A DNA stretch of 64,000 bases, taken from Paracoccaceae bacterium (lineage in GTDB: Bacteria; Pseudomonadota; Alphaproteobacteria; Rhodobacterales; Rhodobacteraceae). Below are positions 32,066 through 42,823 of the stretch, piece by piece (position 1 is the first letter of the stretch; the number at the start of each line of letters is the position of its first letter). The stretch lies in assembly GCA_026419405.1 (NCBI GenBank), contig JANZZL010000095.1:1-64000 (forward strand). The letters are read 5' to 3'. The notes beneath the pieces were generated by a model. The model worked only from the letters and a program-made list of their open reading frames with translations. It did no database searches and was not told the DNA's origin. A program made the translations under genes and the position numbers.

Positions 32066-33268
32066 TCAGCCGTCGGCGTCGGCCGGCACCAGCCGGATCA
32101 GCGGCGCCTCGGGCCCGTCGGCGATGACGTAGACGAAGCCGTCGGCCGGGCCGACCGCCACGTCGCGGATCCGCCAGCCCTGCCCCTCGAGCAGCCGCTC
32201 GGGCGGCGAGACCGACTCGCCCGCCACCTCGAAGAGGCCCAGATACCGGTGCGCGAGGTTGCCGATCAGCAGCCGGCCCTGCCATTCGGGAAAGGCCTCG
32301 CCCCGGTAGAAGACCATGCCCGAGGGCGGGAAGTTGTCGGCGCGCCCCGGCCCCCAGTGGAAGACGGGCGCAGTCACGCCCGGGATCTCGTCATGCCCGG
32401 ACGAGATCTGCCGGCCGGTCCGGTAGTCCACCCCGTAGCCGGCGAGCGGCCAGCCGTAATTGGCGCCCCGCTCGATGATGTTGATCTCGTCGCCGCCCGC
32501 CTCGCCGTGCTCGGCGACCCAGAGCGCGCCGGTCTCGGGATGCACCGCCATCGCCTGGACGTTGCGGTGGCCGTAGGACCAGATGGCGGGCTCGGCGCCC
32601 GCGGTCCCGACGAAGGGATTGTCCGGGGGAACCGCGCCCTCGGGCGTCAGCCGGATCACCGCGCCGTTCGCGCTGGAGAGATCCTGCGCGATGTGGTCGG
32701 GCCCGAAGTCCTTGAACTGCCGGTCGCCGAAACCCACGAACAGCAAGCCGTCGGCGAAGGCGATGCGCGAGCCGAAGTGCCCGCGGCTCTCGCTGCTCGG
32801 GAAGGCCGGGAGGGCGACGAAGAGCACCTCCGTCGGGCCGAGGCGCATCGCCTCGAGGTCGAGCGGGGCGCGCCCGACATGGGTCGCCGTGCGGCCCTCG
32901 GCGTCGGCGCCGGTCCAGGTGAGGTAGAGGTAGGGCTCGGCCGGGAAGTCGGGGTGCAGCGCGATGTCGAGCAGCCCGCCCTGGCCGTCGGCCACGACCT
33001 CGGGCACCCCGGCGATCTCGGCCACCGCGCCGCTGTCGAGGGTGACGAGCCGGAGCGACCCCGTGCGCTCGGTGACGAGCAGCCGGTCGCCCTCGGGCAG
33101 GAAGGCGATCGCCCAGGGCGAGCGCAGCGCATCGACGACGGTCTCGACCGCGAACCGCGTCTCGGCCAGCGCCGGTGCCGCGGCGAGGCCGAGCGCGATG
33201 CCGAGCGCGACCGCGGACGGGCCTGCGCGGCGCCGCGCGGCGGGTCGGGGGGAGCGGCAGACTGGCAT
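32066..33268 (-). CDS. PQQ-dependent sugar dehydrogenase (soluble aldose dehydrogenase type)
   Basis: Probable periplasmic six-bladed beta-propeller enzyme oxidising aldoses with PQQ, family of Acinetobacter sGDH and E. coli YliI. The 400-residue protein has a signal peptide (about residues 14-36, ending ALA), SPWAIAFLPEGDRLLVTER, GLLDIALHPDFPAEPYLYLTWT, the HFGSRIAF catalytic-His segment, AIWSYGHRNVQAMAVHPETGALWVAEHG, GDEINIIERGANYGWP and FPEWQGRLLIGNLAHRYL. ATG chosen for its GGAGGA box and signal peptide. Substrate unknown; YliI-type members act broadly on aldoses. Confidence 0.88.
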   Translation of the reverse strand: MPVCRSPRPAARRRAGPSAVALGIALGLAAAPALAETRFAVETVVDALRSPWAIAFLPEGDRLLVTERTGSLRLVTLDSGAVAEIAGVPEVVADGQGGLLDIALHPDFPAEPYLYLTWTGADAEGRTATHVGRAPLDLEAMRLGPTEVLFVALPAFPSSESRGHFGSRIAFADGLLFVGFGDRQFKDFGPDHIAQDLSSANGAVIRLTPEGAVPPDNPFVGTAGAEPAIWSYGHRNVQAMAVHPETGALWVAEHGEAGGDEINIIERGANYGWPLAGYGVDYRTGRQISSGHDEIPGVTAPVFHWGPGRADNFPPSGMVFYRGEAFPEWQGRLLIGNLAHRYLGLFEVAGESVSPPERLLEGQGWRIRDVAVGPADGFVYVIADGPEAPLIRLVPADADG

Positions 33269-33618
33269 GGGCAAGGATCCTCCTCTGAACTGGCGCGACA
33301 GACCGGCGCGACGCCCTGTCTGCCGCTGGGGCTGGCCGCCGGGGCCGGCGCACGGCGGATTGCGGCGGATCAACGCCCGACCCGCGCCGCGGTTTCCGCC
33401 GCGCCGGCCGCCTGCGGTCACGAGCGCGCGAGGCGGCCGCGCGCCCGGCCGGCGGTCCTCGCCGCGCCCCGGTCGCCGAGGGCCGGGCGCGGCATCGGCG
33501 ATCACCGCCCGACGCGCGCCGACCGCGCGGGCCGCGCGGCGGCGGCCGCAGCGCGACGCGTGACGGTCCGCGTGCGGTTTCGGCCGGAACAGGGCGCACA
33601 CCCGGAAAACCGGCAATC
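33269..33618. other. Non-coding GC-rich stretch before the repeat array
   Basis: About 350 bases with no credible gene; open frames here are shadows. It would be the leader side if the array is read on the plus strand, although it is not AT-rich as leaders often are. CCGGCCGGCGG-type fragments matching part of the repeat in reverse occur at 33446-33455. A low-similarity block at 33558-33586 is exactly 61 bases before the first repeat and shares its CGGCCG end. Confidence 0.4.
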
Positions 33619-33890
33619 CCGCCGGCCGCGCGCGTGGGGGGCGGCCGTTCTCGGGCGGGCCATAAACCGGCGGGAACACCCGCCGGCCGCGCGCGCGGGG
33701 GGCGGCCGGCCGCTGACGAGGCCCGGTCCAAATACTGGTCCCCGCCGGCCGCGCGCGGGGGGCGCCCGCAGTCCGCGGGCGACGGGCTCGTCACCCGCTT
33801 CCGCCGGCCGCGCACGCGGGGGGCGGCCGGGTGCCAGTGCTTCCACCGGCCCCCGGCGGAACCGCCGGCACCGGGAACGCGCCCGGTCGC
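33619..33890 (+). CRISPR. CRISPR-like array, four repeats plus a degenerate terminal repeat
   Basis: Four near-identical repeats start at 33619, 33680, 33742 and 33801. All begin CCGCCGGCCGCGC and most end GGGGGGCGGCCG; they are 29 bp except the third (27 bp, lacking two internal bases, 33742-33768). Spacers at 33648-33679, 33709-33741, 33769-33800 and 33830-33861 are 32, 33, 32 and 32 bp and show no similarity to each other. At 33862, exactly one period later, CCGCCGGC recurs but the rest has decayed, as leader-distal repeats often do. The repeat is partly palindromic and its core CCGC-N4-GCGG aligns with the stem of type I-E repeats. No cas genes are in the window. The alternative is a GC-rich palindromic intergenic repeat that is spaced regularly by chance. 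Confidence 0.55.
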
Positions 33891-33949: not shown

Positions 33950-34026
33950 TGGTCGGGGCGGCGAGATTCGAACTCACGACCTTCTGTACCCAAAACAGAC
34001 GCGCTACCAGGCTGCGCTACGCCCCG
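33950..34026 (-). tRNA. tRNA-Pro (anticodon TGG)
   Basis: Read on the minus strand, the acceptor stem CGGGGCG pairs with CGCCCCG, discriminator A and an encoded CCA follow. The anticodon stem TCTGT/ACAGA holds the loop TTTGGGT, giving anticodon TGG. The T-loop TTCGAAT is canonical. It decodes CCA and wobble proline codons. Confidence 0.95.
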
Positions 34027-42573: not shown

Positions 42574-42823
42574 GCGTGCTTCCCCGTCCGGTGGCTTCGG
42601 GCGCGCGGCCGCAGCCGCGCAGGTTCGGTGGAACCTTCAGGTTATCGCAGCTGAGCATTGTGTCCAGAACCAGCGGCAGGCAGCCGCCGCATTGCGCCCG
42701 CTTGCCCAGGGCACGCCACACCTTGCCGGGGGTGATGATCGTGTGCGGATCGGCCGCGCGCATCCAGTCCACCGCGGCGCGGATGTCGTGGTCGGTGATC
42801 CGGGTGCAGTGGCAGACGATCAT
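42521..42823 (-). CDS. bfd: Bacterioferritin-associated ferredoxin (Bfd)
   Basis: [2Fe-2S] protein that releases iron from bacterioferritin by electron transfer. The first 65 or so residues match Bfd, with cysteines in VCHCTR (positions 4 and 6) and CGGC (near 45-48). The frame continues to 100 residues and overlaps bfr by 53 bases; the tail is probably a by-product of where the stop lies, though it is translated if this start is used. Its promoter region (42824 onward) has an excellent -35 TTGACA on the minus strand and a 13-bp palindrome at the -10. Confidence 0.85.

Follow-up and report, generated by a model that had tools for sequence, protein, structure and literature searches.

Spacer acquisition by type I-E Cas1-Cas2 duplicates 28 bp of the target and adds a 33-bp spacer, which sets successive repeats 61 bp apart. 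For E. coli, the insertion of a 33-bp spacer in the I-E reaction has been described (PMC9699676), and integration outside arrays upon Cas1-Cas2 overexpression is attributed to Nivala et al. 2018 (as cited in PMC11788318). IHF-like motifs have been found to promote non-canonical integration in vivo (PMC9456107). A further group of described loci, the isolated or orphan CRISPRs, lack cas genes nearby or genome-wide, and arrays at a distance from cas tend toward diverse repeats (PMC5294841; PMC12814883). The array reported here is located in a stretch of 64,000 nucleotides (the window) and has the type I-E geometry first noticed in it, with 28-29 bp repeats and 31-33 bp spacers. With a probability of about 0.66, we consider it to be an old, decaying neo-CRISPR array, one of many founded by off-target I-E spacer integration.

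Structure and surroundings of the window array

The four repeats and the decayed fifth one reported by the initial annotation are real and were segmented by repeat/spacer analysis (Table 1). The initial copies (33618-33647, 33679-33708, 33741-33770 and 33800-33829) start 61, 62 and 59 bp apart; when anchored on the common core of the window repeats these steps become 61, 60 and 61 bp, since a base is missing from copy 3. A chain of four copies arose once among 500 random sequences at Markov order 4 and in none of 500 at orders 1-3, all modelled on the intergenic region that carries the array, which has 83% GC against 71% for the window. The spacers had been described as unlike one another, and five of the six pairs are indeed no more alike than shuffled sequences, the pair formed by spacers 1 and 4 giving a p of 0.04 in the same comparison. 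The proposed search of the full window repeat against the rest of the genome returned no other copy anywhere. In the I-E register, this repeat agrees at 16 of 29 positions with the E. coli repeat, a score reached by 0.2% of the 29-mers of the window, in line with the resemblance first seen by eye; the centre of its palindrome lies 2 bp off the repeat centre.

Table 1. Segmentation of the window array and position of its flanking genes
Feature	Position	Strand	Description
Glucose/sorbosone dehydrogenase family gene (PF07995)	32066..33271	-	Other flank of the array
Repeat 1	33619..33647	+	CCGCCGGCCGCGCGCGTGGGGGGCGGCCG, 29 bp
Spacer 1	33648..33679	+	32 bp; ends in CCGGCGGGAACAC, which together with the first bases of repeat 2 makes up an 8-bp inverted repeat
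Repeat 2	33680..33708	+	29 bp; 28/29 identity to repeat 1
Spacer 2	33709..33741	+	33 bp
Repeat 3	33742..33769	+	28 bp; core minus one base, right end diverged
Spacer 3	33770..33800	+	31 bp
Repeat 4	33801..33829	+	29 bp
Spacer 4	33830..33861	+	32 bp
Degenerate fifth repeat	33862..33890	+	First 8 bases retained, remainder decayed
tRNA-Pro(TGG)	33950..34026	-	Array starts 60 bp downstream of the tRNA 3' end

At 33666-33690, spacer 1 ends in a complement of the first bases of repeat 2, giving a perfect short hairpin (CCGGCGGG-AACA-CCCGCCGG); another one is found at 33852-33870, where the end of spacer 4 pairs with the start of the next repeat (CCGGCGG-AA-CCGCCGG). Such complementarity to the next repeat at the ends of spacers 1 and 4 is unexpected for random spacers and counts against the neo-CRISPR reading.

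The array sits between a gene of the PF07995 glucose/sorbosone dehydrogenase family and the tRNA-Pro gene, and the nearest relatives, judged by protein, belong to the Rhodobacteraceae. In relatives, tRNA-Pro also adjoins a DUF192 gene; a sequence search of the available relative loci detected no match to the array region at tRNA-Pro/DUF192, and an element conserved at the tRNA-Pro locus was ruled out, no comparable repeat being present among the downstream sequences inspected in relatives. The compared loci of family relatives, none of the same genus, contain no syntenic array and, as far as can be seen from them, the window array is special to its lineage. A tRNA-linked element was also dismissed, as a tRNA occurs nearby at only 1 of 17 loci, that of the window. 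Rfam models matched only tRNAs in the window, the terminator search gave no match, by which intrinsic terminators were ruled out, and a folded-RNA region was rejected since the fold of the whole array region is only slightly better than that of shuffles (minus strand, z -2.4).

The repeats might have no relation to CRISPR and correspond to GC-rich hairpins, for instance terminator-like or REP-like, that slippage or recombination has multiplied within intergenic regions. They are palindromic, intergenic and located downstream of a tRNA gene, the minus-strand fold is somewhat better than that of shuffles and two spacer ends form hairpins with the following repeat, all of which speak for this explanation. 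Slippage or tandem duplication would however copy the spacer, and the spacers are unlike yet fixed in length at 31-33 bp; moreover, the 61-bp step recurs at loci with unrelated repeats (see below) and no terminator-like site was found, so that we regard hairpin multiplication as improbable.

A common 61-bp step at loci with different repeats

Distances between direct repeats were scanned over 2.26 Mb of this genome. Exact direct repeats of 20-40 bp occur at lag 61 in 10 independent loci, whereas the other lags average 0.44 such loci (locus-level Poisson p about 5e-11), and no other lag in the sequence scanned behaves in this way. When pairs are counted, lag 61 reaches 49, with nearly all lags except its neighbours and its double in single digits, and the count is still 17 without the four biggest arrays. 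Of the arrays that have at least three repeats and dissimilar spacers, 17 fall at lag 58-64, the distance being mostly 61 bp, and 1 falls in the remaining bands between 44 and 78. No lag-61 repeat was found in the control, composed of 0.62 Mb from other genomes, and the signal is not accounted for by coding repeats, as 61 cannot be divided by three. A set of 81-bp coding repeats (ATCGTGTCGTTGCCG; L195:10498-10845 and L221:118-546), which are probably RTX-type calcium-binding repeats, bears no relation to the arrays. Across the whole genome, the paired-core pattern has 63 forward and 12 reverse matches versus 3 and 1 for the control (75 vs 4).

Overall, at least 14 loci have the 61-bp step in common, with a repeat of its own at each. 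Repeats are mostly 90-100% alike within an array and are unrelated between loci outside the core, a GCGCGC core being common to most of them. In 7 of 17 repeats the palindrome falls within 3 bp of the repeat centre (16% expected), a moderately positive trend for a central GC palindrome. The inspected loci are flanked by housekeeping genes (glmS, moaA, purD, a radical-SAM/SPASM gene, nuoA, a response regulator), and among the flanking proteins of the loci tested none is defence-like, save for a cold-shock domain match beside the window array.

The smallest loci are two-copy units, in which the duplication is exact at C52 (28/28), at C94 (29/29) and in two units of C117 (29/29 and 31/31), and amounts to 27/29 at C63. 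Each of these units encloses one unique insert of 30-33 bp, their flanks are unlike and their duplicated sequences are mutually unrelated. They are located at C52:10205, C94:13150, C117:147, C117:7247 and C63:15354. A repeat-spacer-repeat unit whose 28-31 bp repeat is present in two exact copies points to an insertion accompanied by a long target duplication, since tandem duplication would have copied the spacer as well. Duplication of a 28-bp target around an insert of ca. 33 bp at unrelated sites is seen at the two-copy units and not at the window array, which has passed this stage and belongs, with those of C6, C7, C90, C94, C101 and C109, to a class of short arrays, in which three to five repeats are present. 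Longer arrays are found in C126, with 14 repeats whose core (TTCCCCGCGC..GCGGGG) is very similar to that of I-E repeats; in C78, with two different repeat families and an overlap with the end of C129; and in C63, at the end of the contig, with 20 repeats and spacers mostly of 32-33 bp. The C63 array, the repeat of which is also found at the end of C120, has three spacers present twice and a degenerate last repeat, two features that liken it to true arrays.

C129 and C78 appear to overlap within one array (L201:1-141 and G000:C129 end), and C120 and C63 end in one repeat family (L186:1 and G000:C120 end); in both cases arrays appear to break the assembly and their true length to exceed that seen. 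Partly doubled or scrambled repeats (CGCGCGCGGGGGATCCGCGCGCGCGGGGG) occur inside long arrays (L201:610-760 and L186:751-800), which suggests recombination between repeats. At L218:8851-8996, a 61-bp unit is present three times, two of them with a near-identical spacer (97%), so that one repeat-spacer unit has been copied in tandem.

The window array had initially been read as a possible orphan or divergent type I-E array, or else a new GC-rich regularly spaced element. Its I-E geometry stands, and a single orphan array does not, since at least 14 loci share the 61-bp step with different repeats; these loci, together with the exact two-copy duplications, lead us to prefer repeated off-target founding of arrays. 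A lack of cas genes combined with a lack of spacer matches had been named as evidence against CRISPR; it literally applies to the window array taken alone and is outweighed by the genome-wide pattern. In a related explanation, one or a few true I-E arrays would have been copied or moved, their cas genes lost and their repeats diverged. The common geometry, the GCGCGC core of most repeats, the I-E-like core of C126 and the failure to find cas genes (Cas1, Cse2, Cas7e) in the assembly agree with it. Ordinary orphan arrays nevertheless seem rather unlikely to us, given that repeats alike within arrays are unrelated between loci outside the core and that exact duplications of unrelated sequence look young, hence not like long-diverged copies.

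Spacer matches and cas genes

Exact 17-18-mer scans of low sensitivity revealed no convincing protospacer for the window spacers in phages, plasmids or IMG/VR, and the comparison with phages and plasmids advised by the initial annotation thus brought no support. Matches of spacers 3 and 4 in IMG/VR were rejected because they reach no more than 24 of 32-34 bases, and for the spacers tried from other loci no phage, plasmid or IMG/VR match spanned a spacer. Low spacer match rates are usual in unsampled lineages. DNA of the genome itself was discarded as the chief source, spacers having only a slight edge over reversed ones (29.8 vs 28.6 bits), with one clear exception: a C63 spacer (L186:229-261) that matches the host genome at window positions 42676-42708 (27/28 by BLAST, about 31/33 by eye), apparently within the frame of a bacterioferritin-associated ferredoxin, read by eye. 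It is a self or near-self spacer. A motif search found no IHF-like site near the arrays and no enrichment, on which ground IHF-guided insertion was rejected.

Profile searches for Cas1 (PF01867, TIGR03638), Cse2 and Cas7e gave no match in the assembly (3.5 Mb in 132 contigs, 95.6% complete, which leaves absence unproven), and the search covered these three families. For these families, the description of the array as devoid of cas genes is borne out and the suggestion to look for them elsewhere in the genome came to nothing.

The paired-core pattern is present in 52 of 394 other genomes of the family, mostly as lone, chance-like matches, and at least three consecutive repeats occur in G114, G289, G221, G136 and G174. 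I-E Cas1 and Cas7e were detected above curated cut-offs in G114, G289 and G174, and as two sets in G394, which has single pairs only; in G289 and G114, the arrays and the cas genes are on different contigs. No I-E Cas1 or Cas7e was detected in G221 (98% complete) or G136 (83%). Some of these genomes thus have both the integrase and the arrays. As a rough indication of the base rate in the family, any Cas1 was found in 4 of 18 family relatives; G001, the one among these 4 checked with the I-E model, is I-E. In another relative (G239:C92:31520-31592), two such repeats are separated by 31 bases given as N.

That no Cas1 was found in the genome and no IHF sites were seen would also suit an integrase other than Cas1-Cas2, inserting fragments of ca. 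33 bp with a 28-bp target duplication. We hold such an enzyme to be very improbable, as 28 and 33 bp add up to exactly the 61 bp of the I-E product and several array-bearing relatives carry I-E Cas1 and Cas7e.

Proposed founding of arrays and comparison with described systems

According to the off-target integration that we favour, I-E Cas1-Cas2 would have acted in the lineage formerly, or from a locus missing in the assembly, and would have inserted a fragment of ca. 33 bp at a GC-rich palindromic intergenic site resembling an I-E repeat. About 28 bp of the target site would have been duplicated by this insertion, and later insertions would have used this copied segment as a repeat. A dozen or more further intergenic sites may have gone through such a founding, each on its own, and this independence would be the reason why each locus has its own repeat yet shares the 61-bp step. 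The geometry, the genome-wide 61-bp signal, the locus-specific repeats, the exact two-copy duplications and the I-E cas genes of several array-bearing relatives are observed; the agency of Cas1-Cas2 and the off-target nature of the sites are what we infer, as is that the arrays now serve little or no interference.

We see an even chance that a relaxed-site I-E integrase in some high-GC Rhodobacteraceae keeps founding arrays at palindromic intergenic sites. If true, repeats would be born repeatedly from host sequence and the genome would preserve every stage, with single insertions first, then growth to as many as 20 repeats, and finally decay. A natural genome with many independent arrays at all stages, each having its own repeat, makes the origin of CRISPR repeats directly testable, as it does the target preference of Cas1-Cas2, the growth of a single insertion and the expression or use of such arrays. 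Array finders that assume one repeat per genome would miss these loci or label them orphan or false. Laboratory work has documented off-target founding; what appears to be new, within the open-licence literature searched, is a genome full of its products, priority being provisional.

With type I-E CRISPR arrays, the loci described here share a 28-29 bp repeat with a central palindrome in register, unlike spacers of 32-33 bp and a degenerate end repeat, and they differ in that the repeat changes from locus to locus, in an assembly where no cas genes and no protospacers were found. With isolated or orphan CRISPRs they share the absence of cas genes nearby or genome-wide, whereas the 61-bp ruler common to many loci and the many exact two-copy duplications are not described in the passages concerned (PMC5294841; PMC12814883). 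In the work of Nivala, Shipman and Church 2018 on E. coli I-E, as cited in later papers, a spacer is likewise inserted outside the array and the target is duplicated as the first repeat pair. Their events were seen upon Cas1-Cas2 overexpression, whereas here, with no IHF-like sites nearby, at least 14 loci occur in one natural genome and some have grown to 14-20 repeats.
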